Source: Hydra vulgaris (lineage: Eukaryota > Cnidaria > Hydrozoa > Anthoathecata > Hydridae). From it: a DNA stretch of 64,000 bases. The position numbers were made by a program, and so were the translations under genes. Below, piece by piece: positions 1 to 50,378 of the stretch (position 1 is its first letter; every line of letters begins with the position of its first letter). The stretch spans positions 21,420,001-21,484,000 of the forward strand of contig NC_088920.1 in NCBI RefSeq assembly GCF_038396675.1. Reading direction: 5' to 3'. The notes under the pieces are model-generated. The model was given only the letters and a program-made list of their open reading frames with translations. It had not been told where the DNA came from and did not search any database.

Positions 1-1952
<1,952 letters not shown>

Positions 1953-12622: not shown

Positions 12623-13449
12623 ATGTTTACTGTTGAACCTAATGTTTCGACTCAAGAAAATTCAACGTTCAATACGGAATGTCACCTGACACTTGCTAAT
12701 TATTTTCTGGTTTTCGGATATATTGCCGTTATTATTATCGGAGTAATGGGAAACGTTTTAGTCGTTATTGTTTTTCAAGTTGATTTAAAAAAAAGACCAA
12801 CCATCGATTTACTTATTTTTTACCTCGCTATTTTTGATGGGTTAGGTTCATTTTTTGGCCCTTTTGTATTTTTGTACTGGACTTTAACATGCCACAAACG
12901 ATGGGATTTTGGATGGTTTGGGTGTAAAACACTTCCAACATTTAGTCGTGTTATGACCAACATATCAACTGGTGTTATACTTATTATGGCAGTTGATAGA
13001 TGTCGCTCAATTATTTTTCCTTTTAAAAGACGTTTCCGAAAATTAATTATACACATGGCCATCTTTGTGACAGTATTAATATCAGTTGTTTGGGAATCGT
13101 ATTACATAAGTTCTCTGCATATTGACATGCATCAAACATGCAATACTGCTGCTGTCAATAATCATTTTTACGCTTATCCCCTAATTACTTTGGTAGCAGC
13201 AAGGTCTATAATTTTTATCTCAGTATTTTCAATGACAACATTTGCTGTGTATATTAAGCTTCATAATTGTGAAAGACTGGTATTTTTAAAGAACAACTTG
13301 CTCAATGTCTGCAACAAAAACAAAATAGTTATGAAAATATTGGTAATGATGGCATCAGTGTTTATTCTCTCTGTTGTACCACGAGATATCTATGTTTTGT
13401 ACTATACAATATCTTGGCTTCCTGGTGATGGAGGAATACATGGAGAAAG
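12623..13449 (+). CDS. Class A GPCR gene 1, exon 1 (TM1 to extracellular loop 3)
   Basis: This encodes the first 275 residues of a rhodopsin-like receptor. The predicted extracellular N-terminus has two N-glycosylation sequons (N7-V-S and N13-S-T). TM1 holds GNVLV with N44. TM2 holds LAIFD with D72. C101 before TM3 and C173 in loop 2 are the expected disulphide pair. TM3 ends in D125-R126-C127, a variant of DRY. W157 lies in TM4, and TM6 ends SVVP (P253) without the usual tryptophan. The frame hits a stop (13451-13453) immediately after AAAG|GTAGTT, which reads as a splice donor at 13449/13450. TM7 must therefore come from a later exon, best matched at 27236. The ligand is unknown; the motif set fits a peptide-type or orphan receptor. 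The start is the first in-frame ATG, preceded by A-rich sequence. Confidence 0.9.
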
Positions 13450-14248
13450 GTAGTTTTTTTAAAGTATTTAAAAAAATTTTTTGTTTTTCATTTTATTTAT
13501 AAACCATTTTATTATTACTTTGTAAATTTTTATTTGAACATCTTAAAATTTAGATAAGAAATCTCTTAGAACTTATTTTCAAAATAATGCCGTCTTCATA
13601 ATTGAATTTTTTATTACACACACCTAGCATGTCACTCAATTTCGAATTTCAATAACATGCCCATCTACCAAAAATATGACGTCTTTTCTGTTTAATTACT
13701 TTCATTTGTTTAACAGCAGCCCGGTGTCAGTCAAATTATTTATTACCACCTCAAAGTAAGTATAAACACTGCGCTACGGTACGCTACTGATGTTATTAGT
13801 ATAAAACCATAAAAAAAGATAATACAAAATTAATTACAAAAGTAAATGAAAATTATTAATTTGAGGAAATCTAGAGCAAATACAACATAAAAATCTACAT
13901 AATAGCTATAAATAAACTTAATTTTTTCAGCAAATATTTCTAATAAAGCTAAAAATAAATGCAAATAAAGGCTTTCTGATAACTTGGTTTAAATAGAATT
14001 CAGCATAAAAAAATCTCTTTGTAGTATGGTTGATGATTTAGTACTTATAGTAGCCATAACGCAGTAATTAAAGCACTTGTTTTAGATAAAATTATTAAAA
14101 AGGTAAAAAAAGCAAGGCTAAGACCACATGTTCTAATACCAAGACAAAGACAAAGATTTTCTTGGCCAAATAGTTAAATTTCGACATTATGTCAACGCCA
14201 ATTATTATCAAAACTGCAGACAGCAAGCGCGGCAAAATTAAATAATGC

Positions 14249-14440
14249 AGCCCTGGTACAGTGGTTAGAGCGCTTGCTTTAGAAGCAGGAGATTCAGGTT
14301 TGAAACGAACTCTGGACATTTTTTTGCGTCATGGTAAGGAGGGAGGCGTGAACTTCCTCGTTAAATGCACTTCCGTGGTGCTCTGTGACAGAACCGTTAG
14401 GTCTTCTTGGGGCACCTAAATAACAAAAAAAAAAAACTCA
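14249..14440 (+). mobile_element. tRNA-derived SINE, family 1, copy 1
   Basis: The head (14249-14320) is tRNA-like: A-box-type TGGTACAGTGG, an anticodon-like arm CTTGC-TTTAGAA-GCAGG, and B-box-type GGTTTGAAAC. The body follows with GCGTCATGGTAAGGAGGGAG, GTGAACTTCC and GTGCTCTGTGACAGAACCG, ending GGGGCACCTAAATAA and an A-rich tail. The same body occurs at 34691-34880 and, reversed, at 50195-50378, which proves a dispersed family and not a tRNA gene. It lies in the sense orientation inside the large receptor intron. Confidence 0.85.
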
Positions 14441-16007
14441 TGTTGCATGACTAGATCAAGGTTATGGAAAGAAATTTACGTCTAAAACGCCAAAAATAAA
14501 AATACTTAAAAAATACAAAAAATCCCTCCCCTCAATTTGAGGAGGCTGCAAATTTTTAAGGTCATAACTTTTGAACGCTTAGAGCTTATTAGTCTAGCTG
14601 AGAATAGTAAAAAAATATTTTATTAACTTATATCTCTCACTTTTGTGGTAGGAAGAGAAGGGCAAATATTCTGGGGCTTTTTTGTTCCCATGTTCCGATT
14701 ATCGCAATGTTTTGCAAACCATTATAATATGATATAAATGTAAATATATAAATGTTTGTTCCATGTCTACATTGAAGTTAGCTTTCTTAAACACCAACAA
14801 ATGCATGGTATGCCCTGGTGCAACCTCATTTTTAGTACACGTCAATGAGGTTTATGGTGTTGTTCTTGAGTTTTCTTTGTGTTGTTCTTAGCTCTATGTA
14901 AAGTGTAAAATCTGAAAACAAAATGTTTAAATATTGAATGTTTTTTTATACAAGATATCTTATTTTTTCAACTTTTGTTATTGGAATAACATCTTATTGA
15001 CTTTTTTTTTGTGTCTATAATCACTATTAACTTTACTACATTATTTTTTCAAAACCGACCCGGTGGGAAACAAGTTTTAATGCATTATTTTTTAAAAACC
15101 ATCATTCAAAATCAATCAATCATTAAAATCTAAATTGAAAAAAAAAACACAAAAAATTCCTCGCTGTTTTTGTTTCAAACTTCTTCCTTTTGCTTGTATG
15201 TGCAGGATGATCCTTATGCCAATGATATGCATAGATCGGGATTGTTGCACTGGTCACGTTTGCCATTATAAATAAAATGTTTTCAAAGTTAAGATGATGA
15301 ATTTTTGAACATGGTGCGATTACATCAAGATGGTTGATTTTAAGAAACAGAAATATAATATGAAAACAGCTATGTAGTTCTTGCTGCAGAGTTTTAATCC
15401 TCAATGAGAAAGTAATGCTTTTTCCTAACACGGTAGTGACAGAACAACTGGAATAACACAAATGGTAGTAACTATCTTATAGTAATTGTCCTAACTTGTT
15501 TTACTTTTGATTGAACACGATTTCTTTTTCCCATTGCAGATTCATAGACGAAATAGAGAACTTTAATGTAAAAGATTTTGAAGTTTAGAAACATTTGAAA
15601 GGGTAAACTTGAAACTTGTTAGAGACTTAAAATCGTCACGAAACACTAGTTGCAGAGAATGAGAAAAGCAAGCTATTTGTTTTGCAGTTGCATTTAGAGA
15701 TTTATTTAATCTATATCATCTTTTTTAATTAAGAGTTAATGATTAGTAATTATTAGTATAAAAAAACATAAATTATAAGAGTAGAAAATTGTGCGTGTCC
15801 TCCTACAGAACATTCGGACAAGCAACATTTTCTACTCTCTTTTTTTGTTATATAAATATTTAAAATCAATTTTATTAATGTGTGCCAAGTAAAAATTAAA
15901 AAAACTTATACAAGGTGTATATTGTGTTGACTAACAACTTGTAGGTTATTTTATTAGGGTATTTGTTTTAGGTTATTTAATTATACAATGTTAAAAAATT
16001 CTCCGTA

Positions 16008-16135
16008 TTTTCTCCGTTAAAAATTAACGATTTCCGCATTTCATTTTTTCCGTACAAATTAATGGAGAAAGTCAGGCAGGAAAGAGACAGCACTTTCTCC
16101 GTAAAATTTACGGTTTCCGTATTTCATTTTTTCAA
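16008..16135. repeat. Diverged direct repeat of about 40 bp
   Basis: A unit with TTTCTCCGT, a short A+T stretch, TTTCCG and ATTTCATTTTTTC occurs at about 16008-16055 and again at about 16094-16135, separated by a less A+T-rich segment. It may be a remnant of a small repeat element. Confidence 0.5.
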
Positions 16136-18371
16136 TTCAAATTAACAAAAAAATCATTTTTAAATCAGCAAATAGACTCATTTTACTGAGTTTACCCGAA
16201 AGTCAAAAATAAAAGAATAGAATTTATGTTGTTATAAAAATCTAATTAGACTTAAGACACTACTCGCATTTTAAATAAATAAAAATTATATCATAATTTA
16301 TATAACATCAAACACAACATAAAAAAATTCAGTAGTTTTGAGTACTTTAGCCACTTACAAAACATCTACAAAATATCTATTTTAATCATATAGACCATAT
16401 GAAAAACGTCTAAAATATATGAAATGATATCTGATGATGCACAACTATGAGTAGCTCAGTTTTTACGAGTTTTTTTAAATTAAATTTACTTGGTGCGTTT
16501 TCCAGATGAACTCGTGATACGTTAATGAAATAATTATTATATAATAACAATAATTATAATAAGTATAAACAAATTATTTTATAGTAGTTATTAAATATAT
16601 TATATAATATTGATGATAACAAATAATATATTAATATGATTAATTGTTCTATATAATAATAGTTATTATATATACTAGAAGTAAGCAACTCGTAATACAG
16701 GTTATTAGTAATTAAATCATTTACAACAATAAAAAAACACATTAATAACTTGATATATTATCTAAAAAGTTAAATACAAATTTATCTATAAATAACATTT
16801 TAAGTTTTACTCCCTATCAGCAATTTCATTGCTTATAGTTAACGACATAAAAACTGCAATAACATCAGTTAAGTTCTTTTTACAATCTGTCATAACTTAG
16901 CAGGTACCAGTAAAGGAAAGTCAAGTAAAGCCTGCAAATACCTAAAAAAAGAAATTAAAAAAAAATTACAATTTTTAATTACAAAAGTATTATTTGCATT
17001 TTATTGTTAGTAGAATTAGGATAATAATTATAAAAAACAAAAAAAATAGATTTAACAGCTTAGTTCTATCAACACAAAACACAGTAACAATAGCGCATAG
17101 CATAAGATTTTTGTAAACGCACATTACTGTGTCTCCAGAATAGTTAAAAAAGAAAATACTATAAAAAGGATAAACGATACAACGTAATAACACCACAACT
17201 TTATAAAATATTTTATTAACTAAAATACTTGAACTAAAAAGATTTCATTTGTTACAATATTTGAACAATCGAGGAACAATTAAAGTTATTAATTTAAACA
17301 ATTATATCAGAAAATAGCAAGCAACTTGTAAGATATTTCTTATAAATGGTCATAATCAATTGTGGTATTAAGAAATATGTAATAAGTTTATTTAATTCTC
17401 CTTCTCATCTAAAAGAAAGAGGGAGAAAGAAAGAAAGAAAGTGTTTTCAAAGCAGAATGTTAAAAAAAGTAAAAAAACACACAATAGATAATAGTAACTG
17501 GTTTTATTATGTTACCAGTAAACAAAATTATTTTTACCTTGATTAAAAAATAAATTCCCAGCATTTCTTAATTAAGTTACAACTTCTCTTTGACTGTTGA
17601 CTAATAGTTAATAGATTAAACTTAACATCATATTAAATTTACAAAATTAAAACCATGTTTCAACAGTAAGCAAACTAATCAAGTGATGACAAAGGCAACT
17701 AAAAAAAAAAAAGAACAATTATGCTTGAAATTATAAAAAAACGTATAATCATTTATGTTATTAACTGTTTGTTTATAAATGGTTGTTATAAACCGTTATT
17801 AATCTAAATATTACTATCAATATATATACTATAAATCACTCAATATATTACTATAAATATATAAATAATATTACTATAAATAGAAAATTCATACTTTACT
17901 TTGTTCTCAAGTGTCTAATGTAAAATCGAATTAACAGACATCAACACTGCTTGACACTGAATTCTTGCAAGTAAGTTATCTGCTCGCTGAGCAGCATTTC
18001 TTACATTTCAACAATGATTAATTTTATCCTACCTAGATCTATCTCTTTTATTTGACAACAACTATTTTTATGTCACCTATTACCATTTACACTAATAACT
18101 TCGAGCCTAATATTATCTATTTCATTTTCACTATTATCATTAAACATATTACCAATAATATTACTATTGTTACAACTGAATAATAAATAAACATAAAAGA
18201 ATCATACAAATTGCGATCTTTTCTAATCAAAGACTATATTTCAACTTCAAATTTATTGTAAAACTGAGATACACAATTTCTAACCAATGTAGCATGTTCA
18301 GGATTGTGTACCAACTATGCCATCTGTCATGGAAAAAAAGCGAACAAACTCTAGGATCTGAGTTAGTTGAC

Positions 18372-18494
18372 ATTCTTAATAAAACTTCTAAATGACCTTT
18401 TGGTCATTTAAAAGTTTTGATGAGAATGTTAAATAACTTTCCTGGAAGCAGGTACAGTAAGGTAAATAACTTTCCTGGAAGCAGGTGCAGCACC
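18372..18494. repeat. Inverted repeat followed by a 33 bp tandem duplication
   Basis: CATTCTTAATAAAACTT and AAATGACC (18372-18399) pair with 18400-18427 as a nearly loopless hairpin with few mismatches. Directly after it, TAAATAACTTTCCTGGAAGC with AGGT occurs twice, at about 18430 and 18463. Confidence 0.7.
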
Positions 18495-19599
18495 ATCTCC
18501 AACAAATACAACAGCAACTTTCCTAACTATAGTTTGCAAATGAAACATTAAATTATGTAAGCAAAGTTGATTGTGATGTTATTGCTTTCTAAAATTTACT
18601 GCTGCAAGTGGGTCAGAGACATGCAGTTGATAGTGACAGCTTGCTTCTTTTCAATAAAATATCAATTATTTTTGAGCTGGTAGTTTTTCCTCTAATATCT
18701 TATTTAAGGCCAATATCAAACATCGAGAAAAAAAAGAGAAAAGAAATTAAATTAAAATATCAAAATATTAATAGTCTAAAGTGGTAAATATATTAACAAA
18801 GTGGTAAACATATCTACAAAAAGATAAATAATAATGTTTAAGTAAAAATCAACAAAATCTTGCAATCCTAATAACAAAAATATTATTTTGTAATAAAAAC
18901 AAAAACACGATGTTGAATCTTACTTGGTTTCTCATCTATAAAACAATTTTATTTAACTATTAATTTTAAATTTTTAATAATTTTTAATTGTTTATTAATT
19001 TTAAAATTAATAAACAAAAATTAAAATAATTTTTTACAATTATCATTTAAAATAAAAACCTCTAACAATTTGATTTAGGATTTATTAATACCCATATTTT
19101 TTTGGCAATGTCCGTTAGTATACTTTTATCTAAAGTAATAAAAAGGATGAAACAATTAAACAACAAATTTAGAAATCTAAATATATATTCAGATACCTTA
19201 AAAAGAAACATAACATAACATTCTTTTGACAACTTCCAACATAATTTTTTTTACTTTTTACTACTATTTTCATATTTTTTTTTTATCTAAAAGAAAATAT
19301 ACATATAGATAGAAATATATGCAAATTTATGCAAATACACCTACATGTCCACAAATAACAGTCTTATTTTATTTAAAGAAAAGGAAACAGGCTATAAAAA
19401 TTAGAAAAATACAAACAACCAACAATAAACAAACATTTATTTATAATTTTATAGTAAAATTAAACAATGAACAACATCAATTCCTCTTGAGACTAAATAT
19501 TTATCAGCTCTACTCCGCTTGCAGACCTTGCTTGAAAGACCGCGTGGAATACTGATTGGCGTGTAGAACAGCCAAGAAATTACTTTAAAAACAAAACTA

Positions 19600-19640
19600 T
19601 TACTACTACTACTACTATTACTACTACTACTACTACTATT
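19600..19640. repeat. (ACT)n trinucleotide microsatellite
   Basis: About 40 bp of ACT units with two ATT interruptions; no coding context. Confidence 0.9.
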
Positions 19641-20289
19641 AAATTAGCGTATTAATAATTATATTATATTATAATTGTTATAATAAATATAAACAAAACA
19701 TCTCTTGATCTATTAATGCTGTCTATTCAAACAGCACTAGTTTGTTTCAAAACTCAAAACTTTTGGGTGATGTCTGACATACTATTTTTTGCCAGCTTAT
19801 TTTTTATAAATGAGTATGAAAGTATATCATTACAAATGACATCATTGTGTGTGAGCATTATTGGGGAGTAAACCCTTGATTTCAGCGGGCAGCTTTTCCA
19901 GGGAACTTTGAAAACATCTATCCAATTGTCTAGCATAGCAATGGAGGATTCAGATGTAGGTCATTTGAAAGTCAAGGTTGGGTTAAAACGGAAACCAAAT
20001 GATGAACCTGAGAAAAATTTTCAATAGTAGTACTTCATTTTAAATGTTACAATCAAAGTTAATCAATATAATATAAAAAATATATAAATACAAATAAATA
20101 ATTAAATAATAATTTAACAATTATTACCATCAAAATTTCTATTCTACTGATAACTTCGACAAAAACCATAATTTTAAATAATTTAAATATAGATCAGATA
20201 ACGAGAATAATAATTAAGAGAGATTTTTGAAAAAGACTCCACTACAAAAATACAGCAAAATCCAAGATTCTTGTTTAAAGCAAAAAAAG

Positions 20290-20392
20290 TCTTAAAACAA
20301 GAAAAAAAAGACTTGTCAACAATGGAAATTTTTTTTTTCTTGTTTTAAGAATTTTTATTGTAAAAATAAGATCTTTTTTTCTTGTTTTAAGA
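20290..20392. repeat. Small inverted repeat
   Basis: TCTTAAAACAAGAAAAAAAA (20290-20309) is mirrored by TTTTTTTCTTGTTTTAAGA ending at 20392, with a third, direct copy of the right arm at about 20337-20350. This may be a degraded short inverted-repeat element. Confidence 0.55.
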
Positions 20393-21063
20393 ATTTATAT
20401 TCTTAAAAAAAGAACTTTTTTGTTCTTTTTTTCTACCGACTTGTGTATTCCATAATGTAAAAGAGCGTAATATCTTCAGTCAAGACTCTTGCTGAGTCAA
20501 CTGTGACAGAAGACTTTAATACATGGGCTATCTTGCCAACAATCCGAATTAAATAATGATTAAAAAAAAGCATACAATTTTTAAAAGCAGAGAAAACTTG
20601 TAGAATAACTCATTAGAGGACATAAAAGTTTTGAAAAAATACCTACTCACTTTAAAAAGTATTTGTGATTTTGAAACACTTATAATTAAATAATATGATT
20701 ATAATTAAATAATAAATAAACTAAACTTTAAGCATTACTTAGAATTTTTTTGATAAATTTTTATTATGACTTTGTTTACAGGCAATATTATTCATTTTTA
20801 AGATTATATTCAAGTATAGCCTACTATATTTCTGTATTTTTATTTGTTATTTTTGTTATATTTCAATTCACCTGCCCAAGACCACCGCAATTGAGCAGGC
20901 TACTTTATATTTGGTTACAACCCTCTCTCAACTTTATAAATCCAAAACACAAACCTTGACAATAAAGTGAAACAGCTTAGTGTGGTACTACCAGGGATAT
21001 GGTGAAGATAGAACACCACAAAATAAAATAACTATAAAAACCACTTAATTAACTAAAAATAGA

Positions 21064-21105
21064 TTAGATATCTAAACAACATATGATTGTTGTTTAGATA
21101 TCTAA
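21064..21105. repeat. Perfect 17 bp-arm hairpin
   Basis: TTAGATATCTAAACAAC (21064-21080) pairs exactly with GTTGTTTAGATATCTAA (21089-21105) around an 8 nt loop. A little further on, ACTTCATAGT is repeated three times (about 21221-21250). Confidence 0.85.
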
Positions 21106-23342
21106 ATTACTATTAAATTAGTAAAGAATTCTAAGTAAACTACTTATGATAGTACCATTTTCTTTTTAAAAAGGAAATAAAAAGGGTTCCTCAAAAATTG
21201 TATTTATTTTTGAAAGTTTACTTCATAGTACTTCATAGTACTTCATAGTAAAGAAAACTGAAAAATGTTTTTTTAATATCTTTTAAAATAATGGTTTGAC
21301 TCTAATTTGAGTCTAAGTATTGGTTTACCAGTACTGATTCCATGAAAAAGATTACATGATTTAAAGTTGTATAGTTTTATATTTTCAAAATTTTAATAAT
21401 TAGTTAATTCATCGGCATCGGCCTTTTCTCATCCATCAGCATCGGTATCGACCAAAAAAGTGCTATCGGTACATTGCTAGAAATCACAAATGAAAAATAA
21501 AACCTTACCACCGACACATCAGAGAAGCATGGATAATTCTCTAAAACTGTTGCAATTCTATCAACTCTCTCAACTGGAAATTTATTTACGCAGCTTTATA
21601 AATGTTATAATTATTGATCAATTAAAAATGCACCAGAACAAAGTTCTGGTTCATTTTATTTGATCATGTTATAAAAATAAGGAAAAAAATGTGAAAAAAT
21701 AAAATTAACTATTAATATTAAATTTACTAATTGAAAAGTAATGTTTTCTTTACTTACTTTACATTGCATGTATTTGGAAACTTGCAATTGCTAAAAAAAA
21801 CACACACATATATATCATATATGTGTGTATGTATGCAACATACACATGCATTTTATGGATATTTAGAAATAGTACTGCCACTAATCAAAGTAAAAACCAA
21901 TTGTATAATAATAGCAATAAGGATATTAAAATAATTATAACGAGGAAAATAACAATAATAGCAATGCTAACAATAATATTTATATTGTTAAATGTAATTC
22001 ATATAATAATAACAATAACAATAGTAAAAATAATATTGATAAATATTAAAATTAATATTAAACAATATCGATAAGTAATAAGGATATGGAAAATAGTAAA
22101 ATAATGTGGATACTTATAATACATATAATTATGCCAAAAGCAATAATAATAATAACCCACAATGAGCCCAACATTTTACAAACAGTATCTCTCCAAAAAA
22201 AAAACATAAAGATGAGTTTTAGTAGAAGAGTTTTATTGATTTAAAGTGAATATAAAAAAATAAATTATTCCATGAATAAAAAATGGTAAATTATTCCATG
22301 ATTTTATGCATTGGTTTGTGATGTGATTTTTTATGCCGCACTCAACTAAACAATGATTTAGGATATATAATTTAAGGTTACTGAAAGATGGAAGATAATA
22401 ACGAGAACTTTTTATAGAAGTAAAGAAAATACAGATTGAGAGAGGTAGGGTAACTTGTCTGTGATTTTAGAAAAATAAAAAATTTAATAGATAAACAAGA
22501 GGACACTTTGAGGATATTTTGAATGTCTTATTTTAGATGAGATATTCTTAAAAAATTATTGGTTGATAAGTGGCTCAGGATATTGTAGAAGTGCACTTAA
22601 ATTATAAGTATGTATAACATATTATATTAGAGTGTTTCTTGTATGTTTAAGAAATAAAATTTTTATTAAAAGAGATTTGCATTTTAACTATTACAATCTA
22701 TTTGCTTTTAGAAAAATATATTGCTGATTTAATACAGTTTTATTGATGTTATTCCACTTTTGAAAAAATCGGGTTCGACACTACAAACAACTTTTTATAC
22801 TCCATTCATCACGAGTTAATTAAATATGGCTGCAACATTAACTTTTACAAAAATAAACTAAAAAAACAGTTGCTATATAAAAAAGATTATGTAGCTTAGA
22901 TCCGCTGCCATTTTAAAATCTTAAAAATTTCTTTTGTAATTTTTAATAATGCGCACCTAAACATAACGCTCGTAATTGACAACTATTTTAATATAAGGTT
23001 TTTAAGATTTTGGGGCCCTAATGACAAGTTGGAAGGGGGAAGGCGGAAGGGACAGACTCTTTAGCCACGCAAAAAAATTTTGATCCGCCGACCGGCAGTA
23101 TATTCATTTTTGTTTAATTCATTTATATAAAGAAGTGCACAACTTTGAGGAACTTCAAACCAAATCGCACTTATGCATGTTTGCATTTTAACTTTTACTT
23201 TATACTTATGTTAACCTGCTACTACTTGGCCCTTACAAAAGATTCACATATATGCTGTTTAGATTTATGCAGATTCGCAGGAATAAAAATTGCACTTAAT
23301 AAATTCGAATTCTATAGAATTATTGTGGTGTACAACTCTTTC

Positions 23343-23392
23343 TGTGGTGAACTCATCTTGGGTGGTAAAACACCCAAGATAAGTTCACCACA
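23343..23392. repeat. 22 bp-arm hairpin
   Basis: The left arm begins TGTGGTGAACTCATCTTGGG (23343-23364). The right arm (23371-23392) is its reverse complement with one mismatch; the loop is 6 nt. Its higher GC than the surroundings suggests a recent or selected structure. Confidence 0.85.
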
Positions 23393-23784
23393 TAAATTTT
23401 GATGATTTTCTGCTTAGCGTCAAAATTACTTTTAAAATTATTTGCCTCACAGGTACCACAAACAAACTGAAAAGTTTCCAGACAAACAAGCTCAAAACAA
23501 GTTTTTAACCAAAAAACAATAAAGTTAATTGATGGTGGAGTGTGTTTTTATCCAAAACTCTTTATTTTTTAAACCGCAAACAGAATTTAGTATAATGAGT
23601 AAGGAGTGTGAACCATTAACGATTGAAATTATAGATAAAACACCGCAAAATGTCATGGTACATAATTTGTCCCAACCAACATATGACAATATCAAGTTTT
23701 TTGAAAATCAATGTGATTTTCAAAAAATTTGAAATAGGTTAATTTCTAATGAAAAATTTTGTGGTAAACGTGTTTTATTAGTGC

Positions 23785-23880
23785 CCAGTGAACACCCATC
23801 ATCCGGGGGACGACTGTCGTACGTCTCACGGACGTCTAGACTTTTAACGTACGTCCGCTGGACAACGCATGCCCCCTGGA
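23785..23880. other. GC-richer island, possible transposon end
   Basis: Contains TGCCCAGTGAACACCC, then repeated GACGTC/GTACGTC words. A related word set (TGCCCAATGGGCACGC then GTCGTCC twice) appears at 57468-57512. The sharing suggests the terminal part of a dispersed DNA element that I cannot classify. Confidence 0.4.
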
Positions 23881-25017
23881 AAGGGGATTTTAATTATGAT
23901 ACATATAAAAATGTGAACAATTTTCTAAACATCGTTTTTAAATATGGATAAATTTTAAATATTTTAATTATTATAAATACTATTTATTATAAAAAAGCGA
24001 ACTTGAATTACTAGGAATCGCTAAACTTTAATTGATCAAATTAACGAACTTAAAAGTATAAAAACTAAAGCTAGATTATTTATATTGATATATCGGATCA
24101 TTTACTAAAATTTATATTAGTTCAAAATTGTGTTTAACGTACGATTCAAAAAACAAAAAAATTTTTTTCTGATATTATAAAAACACTATGATAAAGCGTT
24201 TCCGGCGATAACAAAAATTATTAAAATATTTTTAAATCTCTGGATTAAACCACGAATAATAAAATTATCAAAAAAAAACAATGTTTGTATGAAGCAGGGG
24301 CTGTTTCATGGATGAGAAGGAGGGGGAGATTGCCCATTTCCGTTAGATTTTGCGAAAATAATTTTGTATTTCTATATATTTTTATACATCTTTGTATTTA
24401 ACTCAGCATGTTGTTAAAAAAAAGAGGAAGCAAATTAAACCTGATAGGTAGGCTGTTTAAAAACGATTTGAAGTTTTAATAAAATTGTAAGATGCGAGTT
24501 TATATCGGATTTTTGGGGAATTAATGTATTACGTCATTCCATAGTTACATAGATAAAAACAGTATTAAGACCGATATTAAGAAAAATCAACTAAAGATGT
24601 GTTAGGATTTGTGGACTAGCCTGTTCATAAATCATAAAATTCAAAAGTTGTCCCGTTTACGATATGGTCTAGATCTAGCAATCAAAAAAATTACAAAATC
24701 AAAAAAAGTAAAAAACTACTTCCGTAAAAATAACCGCATATTGTTCTTCTTTTTCAGATAGCATAAAAAATTTATGATCATTTCATTTCATCATTATTAT
24801 ATGTGTATTATTAAGACTTTTCTAGACGGCTTGAATTATATTATTAGCTTTTGTTACATATGCAGTGAAAATTAACTCAAAAAGCTCTATAAACTTTACT
24901 TTGGTTATGTTGTTGGCTTTCTGGACAAAACATGGGTGCCACATATTTGCTGTATGAGATATTCATCAGGGTTGGTTACTTGGTTTAAAAGTAAAGGTTG
25001 AATTCCATTTGCTATTC

Positions 25018-25163
25018 CTTGATATGGCGAGGGCAATATGACCATGATTGCTACTTGATATGGCGAGGGCAGTGTGACCATGTAAATAGTTGCTACTTTT
25101 ACCCTCAAAAAAGGTATCAATGAGAAAAACAAAAATTTGTTTTTCTCATTGATACCTTTTTTG
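25018..25163. repeat. 36 bp tandem duplication beside a perfect 58 bp hairpin
   Basis: CTTGATATGGCGAGGGCA with following TGACCATG occurs twice at about 25018 and 25054, each followed by a TTGCTAC word. Then 25106-25133 and 25136-25163 are exact reverse complements (28 bp arms, 2 nt centre) containing GGTATCAATGAGAAAAACAA. Confidence 0.88.
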
Positions 25164-25403
25164 TTTGATAATTTATCTTTCTCATGCTTTTCAAATAGTC
25201 AACCTTTTTTGAGTCTCCCATCGGTATATGCGCCTTCTACTCAATACCATGTTTCAGCTTTGTCTGAATTCTTTAATTATATTAATTACCAACACGGTAA
25301 ATTAAATTTACATTAAACGTTTAAATTTACTTACGTAATTTACTTTTTGATAAAAATTAACTTACTCGTGTAAGTAAAAAAAAAGTAAGTAAAAAGGCCA
25401 TCC

Positions 25404-25840
25404 TTAATTTTGACTATCCCAGACTATTACAGTAGGAATGTCATGTAACTTTGATATCAACGTTTAATAAATTCCATCCTTAAAGTTGAAATGCCAGTAT
25501 CTCAATTTGTTTTTTTGTTAGTAGAAGATCTTGAACTAAGTTAACACGCTTTTGTTACTATTGATTTCAGATAACAAACTGAGGCTGGACGTTGTTGGTA
25601 ACTGGAGAAATGTGAAGCTGGTCAAAAATCAGATATGGTGGATAACAAGCATAATTGACATAATTGTTAGTTCTTTTTTCAGGTTTTTTCTAGTGAGATC
25701 TAATTCGAGATCTTCAACAAACAAAAAAACAAATTGAGATACTAGCATTTCGACTTTAAGGATTGAATTTGTTAAACGCTGATATCATAGCTACAAGACA
25801 TTCCTACTGGGATAGTCTAGTGTAGGATAGTCGAAATTAT
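25404..25840. mobile_element. MITE-like element with about 130 bp inverted ends
   Basis: The left arm (about 25404-25535) runs GACTATCCCAG, AGTAGGAATGTC, AACGTTTAATAAATTC and ATCTCAATTTGTTTTTTTGT to GAAGATCTTGAA. The right arm (about 25700-25840) is the same series reversed, with scattered substitutions and one indel near its tip. The roughly 160 bp centre has no transposase. The size (about 440 bp) and long inverted ends fit a non-autonomous DNA transposon. Target bases are unclear: TTAA words lie close to both ends but not symmetrically. Confidence 0.82.
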
Positions 25841-26341
25841 GTTAAGCAATATACAAAGCAAAATCGGCCATTACTTTACGTGGGTATTCCTAGTAACAAC
25901 AACATCAGCAAGCTTCAAATCAAACTGGGTCTTATTAAACTACTTGTGAAGGCACTTGAAAAGAAAAAAGCAGCTTACAGATACCTCATTCAAAAATTTC
26001 CTTCATTGAGAGAGATAAAAAAAATACCTTTATCAATAAATGTAATAGTTTTAAATAAACTTCTTCATATCAAGCTTCTATAAATATCTTTAAGAGACGT
26101 TTTTTTCTAATAAATTCTATGATTCTAAAATTATTACGAGCGGCTCTTAAAAGCAAGGTTTTCTATTAGTTCTTTTTTATTTCATCATGGATTTTTTTTT
26201 AAATATTTTTTGTCAAATTTTTACCATTGAAATTAAAAATAAGCTGATATTGTACGTACAACATCAACAAAATCTTGATATAAAAACCATGATTTAAATT
26301 TTTTTTTTAGTGTGTCAATTTATTTTCATTATCAGTTACAT

Positions 26342-26363
26342 CGACTTGGTACGTACCAAGTCG
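26342..26363. repeat. Perfect 22 bp palindrome
   Basis: CGACTTGGTAC followed by its exact complement GTACCAAGTCG, then a T-run. A degraded copy of the half-site with its T-run, ACTTGGTATTGACAAAGTCG, follows at 26378-26399. Confidence 0.85.
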
Positions 26364-27235
26364 TTTTTTTTTAAATGACTTGGTATTGACAAAGTCGGTT
26401 TTTTTTTTAAATGACTTAAAAAGACATTTCTTAAAAATATTCAGAAGTAGAGATAGAGATATAATACACCACACTGCAAAAATAAATGCGTTTGACTAAA
26501 TAAGACAAAATGATAAATAGACTAAAGATTAGTTTAAAGATTAGTAAGATAAAGATAAGTTACATCTATCTCAACAAGTCAGATAATTCTACGTACGGTT
26601 TTTTTAGTAATGTGACTTGCTGTTTTATTTTTTTTTTCATGAATTATGTGTTGTGTCTTGTTCAACAGGTCTTCAAACCAAAGTAATTTTGTACTTTTTA
26701 TTTCATAGAGTTGTAGTTTTTTTTTTTAAGTATCTCATGGTTAACGGCGTAAAAAGATTTTGGCAGATCAATAAAAACTCCTAATTATTCGGATCTTCGA
26801 AAAAACAAAATAGGAAGGAATATAAAATACAAAGTCCACTAATAGACAAAATTGACTCGGCAACAAATTAATTCCCATTTTGCTGTATCTCATCCAAATC
26901 CTTAACCTCTGCAATAGAAATGTCAGCCTTCCAGATGAAACAATGTTCTAGATCTTATAAAATAACTACTTCACAGTGAAAAACTACACTATCAGTATAG
27001 GCAATGATTTTCACAAAAAATAGTGCCGATTTGTAATTATTAAATACTAGTAGTCCCTACATAGACTAAAATTTGAAAAAATATATTTAAACAGAGGCTA
27101 TATGTTAAATGAATCTATCAAAAAACGTTTAACTACTTGTTGCAGTACGGTTAATGTGACCCTTAAAAAGTTACATTTAAAAACATCAATATAATGACGT
27201 GTGCAATGATGTTTTTTAATGTTTTTTGTTTTTAG

Positions 27236-27512
27236 TGTACTAAACGTAAACCATTGGCTTCGATTACTTCAGACGAGCAATGGAATATACAATGTATTTA
27301 TTTATGGTAAAATGCACGATTATTTTTGGAAAAGCTTACAAAGGATGTTAAATTGCCGATTACAATCATCCAGGGAATCTTTACTTACATTGGAAAAAAC
27401 CAGGCGAGTTACGGAAAGTCAAAACTTGAAAGAAACGGAGTTTGGCGGAACGATCAAGGTTACGCCATTATTAAGTAGTGCCAGTCAGAACAGCTTGAAA
27501 GTTCTAATTTGA
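27236..27512 (+). CDS. Class A GPCR, TM7 and C-terminal tail; probable exon 2 of gene 1
   Basis: Coding starts after TTTTTAG with one base (T) that completes a codon begun by AG, the exact phase left at 13449. The product reads VLNVNHWLRLLQTSNGIYNV then FIYG, which is a TM7 with N-V-F-I-Y in place of NPxxY. A polar 65-residue tail follows, with many Ser/Thr and Lys/Arg (likely phosphorylation region), to a TGA at 27510-27512. Exon 2 of the paralogous gene 2 begins at the same residue and is near-identical through TM7 before the tails diverge. Joining to 12623-13449 gives 367 residues. The nearest ATG (27219) lies in the intron sequence and is not a credible start. The alternative is an orphan exon of a lost third paralog. 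Confidence 0.82.
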
Positions 27513-27859: not shown

Positions 27860-30170
27860 AAGATTCGTTGTCTTGAATGTAATAAATTTCAAAGAATCTT
27901 TTTTTATTGTGTTTTTTAAAGAATAATTTTATTGAAAATGTTGTCGGGAAGGGAGGTGTTAGTTGAGCATTTTATATTGCACGACGCGTCGTAAATTTAC
28001 ATAAAACTACATTTATATCTTTATACAAAAAAAAAGTATATTAAAATCCTGAAAAACAAGAAACGAAGTTTTTTTTTTGATGATTTGCTTGAGAAAATGT
28101 TGCCCAAAGTTTACATGCTACTTAAATTATTCCAGTGGGGTAAGTTGACCAAAGTTAATTAACTTACCCTAAATAGTCTTGGTGATTCATCAGTTAGTTT
28201 CATTAGTCCGTTCTCTTATTAAGAAAATTTTCTTACCGTTATCTTAATTAGAAAACGGTATGACCATTGTTTCGCATTACGTAATCATTTTAATCCCCAA
28301 ATTTCTAACAATTAGATATTTTTCCATGCAATGTGTAATTTTTGAGATATTTTACTTACCAAACTTGTCCTAGTGCTCAACTTAAACCGCCCTTACCTAG
28401 TTTAATCACACTCTTTTTCCCAAAAGGTATTGATTATAAATCAAAACCCTTTGGGACCTATCAAACTTTTGACAGTACATACCCAGTTAGAGTATAGATA
28501 TATAAAACAAATAATATATATAGTAATATATAATTATAGTGTATATAGTCATTACAAAAATATTTATGTATGTTATATATTACGATTAAATATTGTTACG
28601 ATTGTTTTAAAAGTTTTTTAATTTTAAAAATGTTAAAATAATGGGCTACTGTAGTTATAATAAATCAAACTTTTGTTTCAAGCTCAAAATTTTATTTCTT
28701 ATTTAAGAAATTTTTAAAAAATTAAATTCACTAATTTGCGGTCTTAAAATAAGTTCTCATAATTCGTAACGTAGGGAGTTGTAGATTTCAAAAATGTATA
28801 GTTTTACCATGTTTATTGATAAGAAGTGTTGCTCAAATCTGTAACTGCATAGCGACAAGGAACAATGCTTACTTTTAGACTGATATTTAATAAATGTCAT
28901 GAAACAGTTATTTTTTATAGCTTTCAATAAAAAATTTTTACAAAAGAAATTGCTACAGTCAAGAGGGCTTCTCTCTTTTTTTTTTAATTAATTTTATTTG
29001 CAACTCTAATTTCCTTAGTTATTTCACTTATTGTTCAGTTATTTACGTAATTATCGTTATCGTAATTATTGTTCAGTATCGTACATCATCGTATTTTATC
29101 GTAAATTTTTAAAGACTTTTTTTGCAAATAATTAACTTGAACAAGAATATCTTTTTAACTACTTAAAGAATATGACTGAAAATCTTAAAATTGTTTATCA
29201 GGTTAATGAAAAACAATTTGACAAAAACAAAGTTTTTATGGCTTGATGTTGTTGAGATATCGATATTAGCAGCACACATTTTATATAAAAATTACAAATT
29301 ATAAAAAATGCAGCTATTTTGATTCTGTAAAAGTTATGATGGTGGGTCTGGCTAAATTCCTTAACTAAATTTTCTCACTTTTTGCAAAATTTGTAGCCCT
29401 AAAGTCTGACTAGTTCATTAAAAATATTTGTTTGAAAATTTAATTTAAATTGCACTTTTTTTTGCTAACTTTTTTTATGTTACCAATGAACTCAATCGAA
29501 GCCTCTTTTATGAAAAATGAATGTTTATAAATATATCAATATTTAACGTATATAATATTCTTTGTTTTTAGTACAAATGTAAAATGAAAAACAAAACATC
29601 TCCGAAAAACAAAAAAAATAAATACAACCTACGAAATGGTTTTTAATGCAACCATTAAACATTGTCAATTTTGCATTTTATTTCGCGAACCGTATCGAAA
29701 CATCTTTGGAACGAAACTGTCTTATATAACTTTGGTTAATCTTTAATTAAATACTTTTAAAATCTTTTGAAATTGTTTTTATTATTTATATCGGCTTAAA
29801 TACATTTTACATGATAATACATGATTTTGAATGATCGGTTTTTATGGTTTGTAATTAAATTATTTACGACCTGAAAGGATCAAACTCAGTTAATCACAAT
29901 GCAGAGTGTTTCTAAAGTCAGAGCTCGGAAAGAGCAGCACCAAGTGGGTCAGGTGACGTCACAGGAAAGAGGAGAATCGGCAACACATACATAAATCATA
30001 AGTGCGGCTGGTCATGCTTTACCACCTATTGGATTTTTCTATATTTACGGATGAAGATTAGTTATCATCTTATGCAACAGATTGACCAGAAGCTTCTTAA
30101 TCAAATAACTCTACAACATCTTATAACTGCGTTGATCAATGTATATGATTTTCACTAGGTCAACCGCTAA
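27860..30170. other. A+T-rich spacer
   Basis: No gene is supportable. A 9 bp-arm hairpin (GGGTAAGTT / AACTTACCC) lies near 28139-28170. A short less A+T-rich patch at 29890-30000 contains TGACGTCA. Confidence 0.55.
29954..29961. promoter_or_regulatory. Consensus CRE-like octamer TGACGTCA
   Basis: The perfect cAMP-response-element palindrome sits in a patch of higher GC with an adjacent CAGGAA ETS-like word. No clear gene start is nearby, so its use is speculative; one such octamer can occur by chance. Confidence 0.2.
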
Positions 30171-34690: not shown

Positions 34691-34880
34691 GCAGCCGTGG
34701 CGCAGTGATGGCACACTTGCATCAGAAACAAAGGATCCGTGGTTCAAACCCAGCTTCTGGCAAATTTTGCGACATCGGTTGGGAAAGAGGAGTGAACTTT
34801 CAATTGAATGCTCATCCGCGGCGCTCTGTGATAAAAACCGTAAGGACTTCTCGGGGCACCTAAATAAAAAAAATAAAAAT
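34691..34880 (+). mobile_element. tRNA-derived SINE, family 1, copy 2 (diverged)
   Basis: The head GCAGCCGTGGCGCAGTG contains an A-box-like segment, and TGGTTCAAACCC is a good B box. The body is diverged but keeps GTGAACTTTC, GCGGCGCTCTGTGATA, ACCGTAAGGACTTCTCGGG and CACCTAAATAA before an A-rich tail that runs into a (TA)n tract. The anticodon arm is degraded compared with the copy at 14249. Confidence 0.82.
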
Positions 34881-35707: not shown

Positions 35708-36567
35708 ATGATAATTTCTAAAGAAATAAGGGTATTTCATTTACATACACCACAGATGAGTAATTTCAAACTGATTAACGCAAACTCAACCTCCGTTGGA
35801 AAATGTCATTTGCCGATTGCTGATGTTTTACTCGTTCTGGGATATATTGCAGTTATTGTTGTTGGTGTAGTTGGTAATGTTTTAGTAATGATTATTTTCC
35901 AATTTAAGTTAAAAAGAGGGGCGATCATTGATTTGCTTATTTTTTACCTTGCTGTGTTTGACGGGTTAGGTTCATTATTTGGTCCATTTGTTTTTCTTTA
36001 CTGGACTTTAACTTGCAACCAAAGATGGGATTTTGGGTGGTATGGATGTAAAATATTACCACCATTTAGTCGAATAGTTACAAACATATCAACTGGTGTA
36101 ATACTTATTATGGCAATAGACAGATGTCGGTCAATTGTTTTTCCTTTAAAACAGCGTTTTCGACGTAAAACTATGCACGCTGCTATGTTTGCAACAATTT
36201 TAACATCAATTGTTTGGGAAGCATATTACATAAAGGCTCTTCACATAGATAAATATGGAACATGTAATTCTGTTGCCGTTAATGAACCTCTTTATGCTTA
36301 CCCACTTATTGTAATGGTGACAACCAGATCACTAATTTTTCTTTTTCTTTTCATTACGACTACAACAATAATGTATATGAAACTTTACAATGGTGAGAGA
36401 ATGAAATTTCTTAAAAATAGCTATTTAAAAACGCCAAATAAAAACAAAAACGTTATGAAAATGTTAGTTATCATGGCAACAGTGTTTGTAGTGTCTGTTT
36501 TACCACGTGACATATTGCATTTGTCACACACCATTTCATGGCTTCCTGGTGAAGGAGGAATAAAAAG
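35708..36567 (+). CDS. Class A GPCR gene 2, exon 1 (TM1 to extracellular loop 3)
   Basis: Paralog of the receptor at 12623: the two proteins align without gaps over some 250 residues from CHL (just before TM1) to GGI, roughly two thirds identical by eye. Numbered from 35708, it has GNVLV in TM1 (N57), LAVFD in TM2 (D85), C114 and C186 for the disulphide, D138-R-C for DRY, W170 in TM4 and SVLP (P266) in TM6. A sequon lies at N26-S-T. The ATG at 35756 aligns better with the start of gene 1 and may be the true start, giving 16 fewer residues. The coding part ends AAAAG|GTAAGC, a consensus donor; the frame would stop at once if unspliced. The ligand is unknown. Confidence 0.92.
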
Positions 36568-36702
36568 GTAAGCCTACTTCAATACACACTATATAGTGAC
36601 ATTAATAACAATAATAATGATTCATTTTATTATTATTTAGAAAAAGTATATATTTTTTATATATTGTTGCTAAACAGTTTGTTATTATTATTATTACTTT
36701 AG
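36568..36702 (+). other. Intron of GPCR gene 2, 135 bp, phase 2
   Basis: GTAAGC at the 5' end and TTATTACTTTAG at the 3' end. It splits an AGT serine codon after two bases, exactly as inferred for gene 1. Confidence 0.9.
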
Positions 36703-37003
36703 TGTTGTTGTTATTAACCATTGGCTCCGGTTACTTCAAATTAGTAATGGAATATACAATGTATTTATTTATGGAAAAATGTACAATAATTTCTGGAAAA
36801 CCGTAAAAATAATGTTAGATTGTAATTACGCATCTTGGCAACGTTTAAAAGTAGTATGTCGTACATTGACTCAAGATAAAATATCTTTTTTTTTACGAAA
36901 AAAAGCTAGGAGAATTGCAAAAAGACATTATTGGAGTGCAAAAAAATATGATGCAGCTAACATTCAAGTTTTTTATCAGATAAACATAAAAGAATTACAA
37001 TAA
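36703..37003 (+). CDS. Class A GPCR gene 2, exon 2 (TM7 and C-terminal tail)
   Basis: One base completes the split serine codon, then VVVINHWLRLLQISNGIYNV and FIYGKM give TM7 with N306-V-F-I-Y310. A tail of about 73 residues follows, with basic clusters (FLRKKARRIAKR) and ending KELQ. With exon 1 the receptor has 386 residues from the first ATG, or 370 from the second. The stop codon TAA overlaps an AATAAA word (36999-37004) that could serve as, or merely resemble, a polyadenylation signal. The tail differs completely from that of gene 1 beyond the first 15 residues after TM7, suggesting separate trafficking or arrestin interactions. Confidence 0.9.
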
Positions 37004-38544: not shown

Positions 38545-39900
38545 AATCATTAACTTTAACTCAATTGCAATTGGTTTATTCTAGTAAAAAAAATATTTTT
38601 CTTTGTAACGAAATTAAAATTAGTTCGTTTGGTAGTGTTTATATTGCCACTGTTGTTGTTTTTGTTAATCATAAATAATGACCTAATCATGGCCACACGT
38701 CAACCTATTCTTGGTCATGAATCAGGTCTAGTTATGAAAATAAATTTATAATATAAATATAAATATAAATTATATAATATATAATTTATATTATATAATA
38801 TATAATTTATATTTATATATAATATAAATTTAGCTAGAATAAAAATAAAAAGTTTTAATTATAAAGTTTTAAATTATAATTATCGAATTTTTATTATCTA
38901 CATTATTTATTCTATTTCTATTATTTTCATGTTGGAAAACAGAAAGTAGTAATCACAGAAATATAGCAAGTTTATGTTTTTATTTATTTAAGACGTTTGC
39001 TAAGTTGATAACAATAAAGAGTTGTGAAGCGTTTCAAAATGTTTAGATGTTGAAAAAATTACATTTACAAAATTAAAAATTTATGCAGAACTTATTGTGA
39101 TCTGAAGTTTAAAATATTTAAATCTGAAGTTTAAAATATTTAAAAAAAACTATGGGCAAGTTAGGAAAATTAGCAACAATAATTTTTTTTTTCTAATTTA
39201 AGTTTTGAAATTTTATCACTTTGTTAAGAAGTATCAGAAGTTTTTAATCTAATTCGCAGGGCCTTGGAGTCGGGGGAGGGGGCGAGTTGGACAGTTTGTC
39301 CCGGGCAGCAGATATCCCAGGGTTGCCAAATAAAAATAAGGTACCTAAAAAAAAAATAAAAAAAGGTTCTTCATCTATAATGTAGGAAAATTTTGATAAA
39401 TATGGGTGCCAATCAGGGTTGCTGTCCCAGGCGGCGTAACGGCTCTCGGCGGCCCTTCCCATTCGTAAAACGTAATGGCCAGGAATAAGCTTGCAATGGC
39501 CATGTTTTGGCTCTCCGGCAATGATTGGGTGTTTTTTACGCCTTGTTGTGTTTCTGCTAAAACTTGTTAATTTATTGACAAAAATTTGTCATAAATCTTA
39601 AGAAGTTTTTTAAGAGTTTAGAAAATTTTTTTTTTGAACCGAAGCTATTCGCAATAATATATGACGCAGTTTGAAATCAAGTGGCAAGGAATTGGTGGTT
39701 TTACCTTAACTACAAAAAAGTTTTTTTTATAAAAGCCTAATAAGGATATAAACAATTTAATACAGCAAATGAATACCTTCTAAACATAAACTTTCCTTTT
39801 TTGCAATGGGGTTTCAACTTCCAATAGGGTTTTACTTCCAAGCCATAATCAGCTGAAAGACTGTTACCAACTTCAAGGCATACAGTGAAATCTTCTTCAT
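38545..39900. other. A+T-rich spacer with one GC-rich island
   Basis: At 38750-38830 there are self-complementary AT-only words. At 39255-39540 GC content is high, with CCCAGGGTTGC and CAGGGTTGCTGTCCCAGGC words recurring at both ends of the island. This could be a repeat-element fragment; no gene is evident. Confidence 0.45.
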
Positions 39901-39904
39901 TTTC

Positions 39905-40680
39905 AATTATGTTGATCACAGTATTATACTTTCCGAGCTAAAATATTACGGCATAATAGACTTAACACTTAAGTGGATTCAAAGCTACTTATCTAACAGA
40001 AAGCAATTTTTATTACTAGAAAAGTCAGGAGCCCTTGATATTACGTGTGGAGTTCCTCAGGGTTCAATTCTAGGTCCATTATTGTTTTTAATATATATTA
40101 ACGATATGCTTCCCAAAAAATATCTATAATTATGTATGCTGACAATACAATTTTATTTTTTAATCATCCTGATGAAAGACTTTGTTTGAACTATGAACAT
40201 TGAACTCAAAAATTTCAACCTCTGGTTCATAGCAAATAAATTATCCCTAAATTGCGAAAAAGCTAGCTTTACTCTTTTTCATAACAAAAAACAATCAATT
40301 AATCCGTTAAAGCTGCCTAAACTGTTTACTAATAAAAATAAAATAAAATGTGAAAAATATACAAACATTTTTTTTAGTACTTTTTGATAAAAATTTGTCA
40401 TGAAGAAACCATATTGATCTTGAAACAAAGGTGTCCTCTGTAATAGGTGTTTTGTATAAGTCAAGACCTTTTCTCGATAGTCAATCACCTAATATGCATT
40501 ACTTTTATTGAGAAACTTAACACATTACAGATTTTTAATTAATTTTTATAATTTTTATTTATAAGTATAAAAACAATCTTCTACCAAGCGTTTTTCCAGA
40601 TAATTTCTTGATATCATTTTATGAAAAAGAGCGCAGAGTTTTGTTGCCAGGTAATAGAAGACTAGCTTTATATGTTATAT
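39905..40680 (+). mobile_element. LINE fragment, reverse-transcriptase core
   Basis: Translation gives [16 protein letters not shown], then SYLSNRKQF, the RT motif [20 protein letters not shown], and a degraded active site YADN (normally YADD) at about 40135-40150 in another frame. Then ANKLSLNCEKASFTLFH and a decayed downstream part follow (PYRKV, KNNLLPS-like words to about 40680). Stops and frameshifts occur from 40128 on. The downstream peptide (QSIN-PLKLPKLF) matches the LINE at 50384-51080, so both belong to one family of non-LTR retrotransposons. Confidence 0.85.
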
Positions 40681-41579: not shown

Positions 41580-42985
41580 GTTATGCTGTACACTTTACAT
41601 TTAATTAATTTACGTGGCTCGTATACGAGAGCGTCTCATTACTTTTTATCGTTTGGTGTAAAACTTTTAAAATGATTACGCACAAAGATCATGTGTTGAA
41701 ATCTATTTATCTCATATACATTTAATATTTCATTTATCTCATTAATGGCTTAGCATGCCCAAACCTCTTTTGTTGGTATATAATTCTGCTGGCCCACGCA
41801 ATGTTACCATAATTAATGTAGCTACGAACTAGGCTAATGTATATTAATTTAAGCCTGAGTATTTATGAATAGACTGATTCTTTACATTTTTAATTTACTT
41901 ATCATTTATAAAGAGAGCTGGTAATTAAGTGGCACAGTTTCTTCTTGAATTTTTTATAAATAATTTATATTGAGTTTGTCTGTGTTTATTGAGAGCTTGT
42001 TAGCTCTAAACAGTTTATTCACTTTCTTTAGTTCAATATTTATATCTCTGTAAAGCTGATGAATATCAATATTTATATCTCTGTAAAGCTGATGAATATC
42101 AATATTTATATCTCTGTAAAGCTGATGAATATCAATATTTATATCTCTGTAAAGCTGATGAATATCAATATTTATATCTCTGTAAAGCTGATGAATATCA
42201 ATATTTATATCTCTGTAAAGCTGATGAATATCAATATTTATATCTCTGTAAAGCTGATGAATATCAATATTTATATCTCTGTAAAGCTGATGAATATCAA
42301 TATTTATATCTCTGTAAAGCTGATGAATATCAATATTTATATCTCTGTAAAGCTGATGAATATCAATATTTATATCTCTGTAAAGCTGATGAATATCAAT
42401 ATTTATATCTCTGTAAAGCTGATGAATATCAATATTTATATCTCTGTAAAGCTGATGAATATCAATATTTATATCTCTGTAAAGCTGATGAATATCAATA
42501 TTTATATCTCTGTAAAGCTGATGAATATCAATATTTATATCTCTGTAAAGCTGATGAATATCAATATTTATATCTCTGTAAAGCTGATGAATATCAATAT
42601 TTATATCTCTGTAAAGCTGATGAATATCAATATTTATATCTCTGTAAAGCTGATGAATATCAATATTTATATCTCTGTAAAGCTGATGAATATCAATATT
42701 TATATCTCTGTAAAGCTGATGAATATCAATATTTATATCTCTGTAAAGCTGATGAATATCAATATTTATATCTCTGTAAAGCTGATGAATATCATTAAGA
42801 AAAATATATAAAATAGTATCATCACATAATTGAATTTAATTTTGCAGATATACAGAAAGATCGAAGATAAAATGATCAAGAAGATTGCAGAAGTTGCTTA
42901 TCGTGACGTTAGAATAATAGGGTTCTATCTCTCTATTGTGCTGTTAACAGAGTTTAACAAAACAATAAAAAGATTTAAAGTTAAG
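41580..42985 (-). mobile_element. LINE reverse-transcriptase fragment carrying an in-frame minisatellite
   Basis: On the minus strand a decayed RT reads CDDTILYIFLNDIHQL (42800-42835; the first residues resemble the YADD active site). Then come tandem 11-residue repeats, and after them INIELKKVNKLFRANKLSIN, typical of the segment just after the RT active site. Further down are LPALFINDK-like, YINYGNIAWAS (about 41790-41820, frame-shifted) and ILNVYEINRFQHMIFV words typical of LINE C-termini. Many stops make it inactive. It is head-to-head with the LINE starting at 43083. Confidence 0.8.
42057..42790. repeat. 33 bp minisatellite, 22 near-identical units
   Basis: The unit is GATGAATATCAATATTTATA then TCTCTGTAAAGCT. 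Units appear identical throughout, implying recent expansion or gene conversion. Because 33 is a multiple of three, every frame is preserved; on the minus strand each unit encodes LYRDINIDIHQ inside the LINE RT frame. The + strand open frame of repeated MNINIYISVKL is a by-product. Confidence 0.98.
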
Positions 42986-50174: not shown

Positions 50175-50194
50175 AGGAATTTTTTTTTTTTTTT

Positions 50195-50378
50195 TAAATT
50201 TTTTTTAGGTGCCCCAAGAAGTCCTAACGGTCTTATCACAGAGCACCGCGGAAGTGCATTTAACCAGGAAGTTCACGCCTCCTTCCTTACCGTGACGCAA
50301 AAATATGTCCAGAGCTCGTTTCGAATCTGGATCTCCTGCTTATAAAGCAGGCGTTATAACCACTGCGCCACGGCCGCA
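50195..50378 (-). mobile_element. tRNA-derived SINE, family 1, copy 3
   Basis: Read on the minus strand: GCGGCCGTGGCGCAGTGG (A box), an anticodon-like stem CCTGC-TTTATAA-GCAGG, and GATTCGAAAC (B box). The body has GCGTCACGGTAAGGAGGGAG, GTGAACTTCC, GCGGTGCTCTGTGATAAGAC and GGGGCACCTAAA, then an A tail that appears as T-runs at 50175-50205. This is the best preserved of the three. Its head begins about 6 bp after the stop codon of the LINE fragment on the same strand. Confidence 0.87.

Follow-up and report, generated by a model that had tools for sequence, protein, structure and literature searches.

The question raised by this locus is whether two open reading frames (ORFs) that lie almost 14 kb apart in the genome of Hydra vulgaris are the coding exons of a single receptor gene, and how the intron between them came to differ so much in size from that of a related gene standing beside it. 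The window is the whole 64,000-nucleotide stretch C1:21420001-21484000 (GC content 27.8%, 0 N bases), which was analysed together with its assembly of 911,502,276 bases in 15 contigs. It holds two related genes, called here gene 1 and gene 2, which follow one another about 8 kb apart in the same orientation; C, D, E and F denote paralogs elsewhere in the genome. Our analysis suggests, with a probability of about 0.92, that gene 1 is a two-coding-exon receptor of the 7tm_1 family, and that its intron, which a clade of relatives shares and which would have been short initially, was expanded by insertions and is spliced out.

The split-gene reading is strongly supported by the uniqueness of the exons, by the shared phase 2 of the junction, by selection on exon 2, and by a duplicated locus and four paralogs that are built alike. 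In gene 1 the last two bases of exon 1 begin a codon just before the donor (AAAG|GTAGTT), and exon 2, which follows TGTTTTTAG, supplies its third base. The intron runs from GTAGTT to TGTTTTTAG, with the GT...AG ends and pyrimidine-rich 3' end of a U2-type spliceosomal intron. The earlier note had given these exon boundaries, phase, donor and acceptor (Table 1), and all are read from the sequence as claimed. When the exons are joined, the coding sequence has 1104 bp and encodes 367 amino acids with 0 internal stops, and the protein matches Pfam PF00001 (7tm_1) at E 1.9e-14 over residues 43-298, a match that spans the junction, covers profile positions 1-259 of 260 and scores 54.2 bits against a curated cut-off of 30.5. 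By this profile, gene 1 is a predicted rhodopsin-class (7tm_1) receptor, and it resembles rhodopsin-class G-protein-coupled receptors (GPCRs) in that the match extends through the seventh transmembrane segment (TM7) once the exons are joined. Class A receptors usually carry DRY after TM3, and gene 1 differs from them in having DRC in its place. Its best sequence match in the PDB is the neuropeptide Y receptor Y1 (chain 5zbh_A, E 1.3e-11, residues 16-167), a match so local and weak that it names no ligand. The intron falls between TM6 and TM7, in the third extracellular loop. If the intron is retained, translation stops in both genes after a single further codon, AGG being followed by TAG or TAA (13450-13453 in gene 1; 36568-36571 in gene 2), and the result would, we infer, be a six-helix product. 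A tblastn search of both receptors on the window found exon 2 at 27234-27509 and in gene 2 only; all other matches, those inside the intron included, had E 1.2 or worse, and nothing else in the window resembles either exon. Four ORFs of 94-117 amino acids within the intron matched no Pfam family at E 0.1. An assembly gap behind the long intron was considered and rejected, because the window holds no N and the same structure recurs in the duplicated locus.

Gene 2 has the same junction with an intron of 135 bp, in agreement with the earlier note, and its two exons join into a frame of 370 amino acids that matches 7tm_1 at E 5.5e-16. The proteins of the two genes are identical in 204 of 351 aligned columns (58%). 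Both junctions had been placed at the same residue; the phase is indeed the same, but gene 1 has two more codons than gene 2 before the donor (GIHGE|S versus GIK|S), an in-frame difference of 6 bases.

A second copy of the two-gene locus lies on the minus strand at C1 18.79-18.82 Mb and preserves order, phase, donor (GTAGTT in gene 1) and acceptor. There, exon 1 of gene 1 is 5'-truncated (331 bases, 97% alike), exon 2 (97%) has one stop, and the intron measures 19,874 bp, 6.1 kb longer than that of the window. The duplicate of gene 2 has both exons (97.8% and 96.7%) and the short intron, with a one-base gap in exon 2 that alters the last codons and, in exon 1, 7 synonymous and 11 non-synonymous changes from the window gene (w 0.48). 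Of the gene 1 intron in the window (13,786 bases), 13,282 bases align directly with homologous sequence in the duplicate, or 13,743 when inverted pieces are counted, at a mismatch rate of 4.6%. Both intron sizes, long in gene 1 and short in gene 2, thus predate the duplication. The segment 25184-25650 of the window, around a foldback element, is inverted in the duplicated locus, an inversion that could stem from recombination between the foldback arms.

Selection was compared between the two exons by synonymous divergence (dS) and the ratio of non-synonymous to synonymous divergence (dN/dS), both being taken for exon 2 over its conserved part of 37 codons. Between genes 1 and 2, exon 1 has dS 0.81 and dN/dS 0.31, and exon 2 has dS 0.63 and dN/dS 0.21. 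Between gene 1 and D, exon 1 gives dS 1.00 with dN/dS 0.27 and exon 2 gives 0.83 with 0.17; between gene 1 and C, exon 1 gives 1.10 with 0.33 and exon 2 gives 1.50 with 0.24. By these ratios exon 2 of gene 1 is under purifying selection, and the broadly similar dS and the selection on both exons are what a single working gene made of the two would show. Its duplicate is freer from selection than the exon in the window: over 90 codons it has 7 non-synonymous changes against 1 synonymous, besides its stop.

Searching the genome with the DNA of exon 1 gave 14 matches, namely the window, seven copies that are 94-96% alike, the truncated duplicate, gene 2, its duplicate, D, C and one distant match. 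The seven copies lie at C1 13.09, 13.23, 19.50, 20.19, 20.55, 20.71 and 20.86 Mb. A whole-exon open frame is present in none of them (the longest open stretches are 94 to 250 codons), the 13.09-Mb match is without the first 111 bases, and a search of the 20 kb that follow each of the seven copies found no exon 2. The search of the genome with exon 2 reached five places (gene 1, gene 2, the duplicate of each, and D), and an exon 2 of the gene 1 type occurs at two of them only, in the window and in its duplicate. Homology extends into the window intron in all seven copies; in four it stops at window position 18426 and is followed by a common piece of 1.04 kb, 94-99.7% alike, and from the common breakpoint and the shared piece these four copies descend from one partial duplication. 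Beyond the 1.04-kb piece, the four (C1 19.50, 20.19, 20.55 and 20.71 Mb) continue with DNA like window 1388-1519 and 4534 onward, an arrangement that suggests units once arrayed in tandem. Fragments of genes produced by partial segmental duplication are a known kind, and the seven copies resemble them in that none is open and none has an exon 2 in reach; they differ from plain fragments of this kind in that four of the seven have one breakpoint. In all, seven of the eight extra copies of gene 1 are exon-1-only pseudogenes; gene 2 was copied with both exons (1 of 1).

Such decay raises the question of whether gene 1 in the window is itself broken, its exons being relics parted by insertions and no longer spliced together. 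The fate of the other exon-1 copies, the stop in the exon 2 of the duplicate and a weak donor would all fit a pseudogene. However, both window exons are fully open, while copies 94-97% alike have decayed, and dN/dS against the three nearest paralogs is 0.17-0.33, so that we consider a broken gene improbable. As to the donor, the earlier note had called GTAGTT weaker than its counterpart in gene 2, and the duplex energies with U1 bear this out (-6.3 versus -9.5 kcal/mol); yet the donors of D and F are weaker still (both -5.1), and those of C and E give -9.6 and -7.4. Exon 1 of gene 1 might also be spliced, always or sometimes, to exon 2 of gene 2, with its own exon 2 skipped, since the phases are compatible and the genes stand in tandem on one strand. 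This is harder still to credit, given that the skipped exon is under purifying selection, that an AATAAA lies about 370 bases past the gene 1 stop, and that D and C each own a distant exon 2.

Gene 1 is no exception in its intron, because that of D reaches 17.9 kb and that of C 9.5 kb. Genes 1 and 2 and the paralogs C, D, E and F all carry a phase 2 intron at an alignment position that is equal within small loop indels, and this one intron measures 100, 135, 203, 9,545, 13,786 and 17,945 bp in the six paralogs. The donor of F was chosen among four frame-keeping candidates as the only one with GTAAGT. Paralog E is not in the window but some 30 kb beyond gene 2, and its donor AACAG|GCAAGT is in frame, while the neighbouring GT (CAA|GTAAAT) would shift exon 2 out of frame. 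A protein search of the genome listed 83 matches, and a tree of 15 proteins was built from the six intron carriers and nine paralogs that are open across the junction and intronless there; these nine were picked mostly by score, and further places among the 83 matches lie outside the tree. All six carriers group in a single clade (99/97, starred) with the nine intronless paralogs outside, and one origin of the intron is well supported. Intron presence needs 1 change on this tree, a count that fits gain in the clade and loss outside it alike, and long versus short needs 2. Genes 1, 2, C and D group at 67/95, not starred, and long-branch flags fall on F, E and two intronless rows. In a four-row DNA tree, gene 2 pairs with C at 87/80 (Shimodaira-Hasegawa-like approximate likelihood ratio test/bootstrap), and a pair of gene 1 and D is not rejected (p-AU, from the approximately unbiased test, 0.53). 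More receptor-like open-frame groups, at about 21-35% to gene 2, occur at C1:37.10-37.48 Mb and on C2, C8, C10 and C13.

How the intron reached its present lengths is a separate question. That gene 2 keeps 135 bp, as the earlier note had worded it, could not be decided from two genes, and D and C are long too; with only 203 bp in E and 100 bp in F, a short ancestral intron is nevertheless likely. On this reading, the phase-2 GT-AG intron between TM6 and TM7 would have arisen once in the clade or been lost outside it. Short at first, it would have grown in the lineages of gene 1, D and C as mobile elements and other repeats inserted into it, while splicing would keep the exons joined during growth, the 13.8-kb intron being presumably removed from the transcript. 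Only tentatively do we propose the fuller account, in which this single-origin intron grew about 50- to 180-fold two or three times (in gene 1, D and C), relatives stayed at 100-203 bp, and the long form then favoured partial duplication. The long intron might instead be ancestral in the group of genes 1, 2, C and D, with the 135 bp of gene 2 a later contraction. Long introns stand in three of these four genes, an expansion followed by a contraction would cost only the 2 changes that the tree requires at least, and the long genes as a single clade are not rejected (p-AU 0.099). We regard this as rather unlikely, in that the short E and F stand outside the group in the best 15-row tree, although the place of E is not firm, and in that growth by insertion would be common in such a genome and a return to 135 bp with splice sites kept would be rarer. 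The tree fits either two or three growth events or one growth followed by shrinkage in gene 2.

Several results weigh against a two-exon gene 1 with an initially short, later expanded intron. Exon 2 by itself matches no Pfam family at E 1, the C-tails of genes 1 and 2 are only 23% alike over 44 codons, and the gene 1 donor pairs weakly with U1. The repeat identified in the 13.8-kb intron amounts to only about 0.7 kb. Relations also differ among trees, with gene 2 and C paired at 91/93 and 94/94 in five-row protein trees, gene 1 and D paired at 86/95 when six rows are rooted on F, a tree that does not separate E from gene 2 and C, and the long genes as one clade standing unrejected. When gene 1 was compared by blastn (E 1e-20, pieces of at least 120 bases), its intron matched 10 kb of C only in a SINE-like repeat (SINE, short interspersed nuclear element), and with 10 kb of D there were exon matches only. 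As dS is near 1, such little shared intron content among gene 1, C and D says nothing on a common expansion.

Table 1. Coordinates of the receptor exons, introns and associated elements (window positions, or assembly positions for paralogs C to F).
Feature	Position	Strand	Details
Gene 1 exon 1	12623..13449	+	Open frame from ATG, 275 codons + 2 bases; 7tm_1 E 6.1e-14, up to profile position 228
Gene 1 intron	13450..27235	+	13,786 bp, GT-AG, phase 2
Gene 1 exon 2 (TM7 region, C-tail, stop)	27236..27512	+	Matched by gene 2 exon 2 in tblastn at E 1e-15
First AATAAA after gene 1 stop	27881..27886	+	Pattern only
Gene 2 exon 1	35756..36567	+	Upstream in-frame ATG at 35708 also possible
Gene 2 intron	36568..36702	+	135 bp, GT-AG, phase 2; 135 bp in duplicated locus too
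Gene 2 exon 2	36703..37003	+	Joined with exon 1; tblastn match
Paralog D	C1:19299850-19299012 + 19281066-19280757	minus	382 amino acids, intron 17,945 bp
Paralog C	Exon 1 ends 24574868, exon 2 starts 24565322	minus	321 amino acids, intron 9,545 bp
Paralog E	C1:21488515-21487716, exon 2 from 21487512	minus	350 amino acids, intron 203 bp, GC-AG
Paralog F	C10, exon 1 ends 27737561, exon 2 from 27737662		348 amino acids, intron 100 bp
SINE-like repeat, 191 bp	14246..14436	+	blastn 86.6% and 79.3% to other window copies
Foldback/MITE-like element (MITE, miniature inverted-repeat transposable element)	25405..25839		Arms 85-86% complementary

The difference in size between the two introns had been ascribed to SINE, MITE and other repeats, and this stands for the small part of the gene 1 intron, about 0.7 of 13.8 kb, in which repeats were identified. 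Two further copies of the SINE-like repeat lie in the window, one at 50185-50378 on the opposite strand and a partial one at 34765-34879. It looks tRNA-like by eye only, and as ARAGORN found 0 genes on the window its tRNA origin stays a by-eye impression; a scan of the window at Rfam gathering thresholds gave 0 matches. The foldback element has 53 matches in the genome, which outside the locus and its duplicate are parts only, many of about 40 bases. A further stretch of the intron, 20897-21009, is 72% like 53446-53570.

It has been stated in passages of PMC8857917 that the expansion of the Hydra genome raised the average intron size and that transposons make up over 50% of Hydra introns. A table of PMC4986447 gives a mean intron of 2,653 bp in a column with GC 27.8%, which we assign to Hydra by its GC, and the 13.8-kb intron of gene 1 is about 5 times that mean. 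Gene 1 resembles the repeat-expanded introns of Hydra in having a long intron in a repeat-rich genome, and as a split gene it is ordinary in kind, lying in a repeat-rich, intron-expanded genome among relatives with like intron lengths. What this analysis adds is a single intron with its length known in six genes, together with a group of pseudogenes that consist of exon 1 alone. In the titles, abstract openings and passages of the Hydra and cnidarian GPCR literature searched, this receptor group and its intron are not described, although they may be in print. One intron in six paralogs of one genome, from 100 to 17,945 bp, provides a natural comparison, and the length series offers a way to study which conditions permit an intron to lengthen, and whether duplication of a gene tends to yield dead fragments when its introns are long. 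Automatic gene models may truncate gene 1, D and C at TM6 unless long introns are allowed.

Other elements lie elsewhere in the window. A long in-frame tandem repeat occupies 41954-42835, between reverse-transcriptase-like ORFs at 39857-40129 (E 4e-7) and 44323-44790 (E 4e-5, below the curated cut-off), both of which match RVT_1. At 181-600 on the minus strand there is a fragment of a Tc1-like transposase, which matches HTH_Tnp_Tc3_2 at E 3.9e-11.

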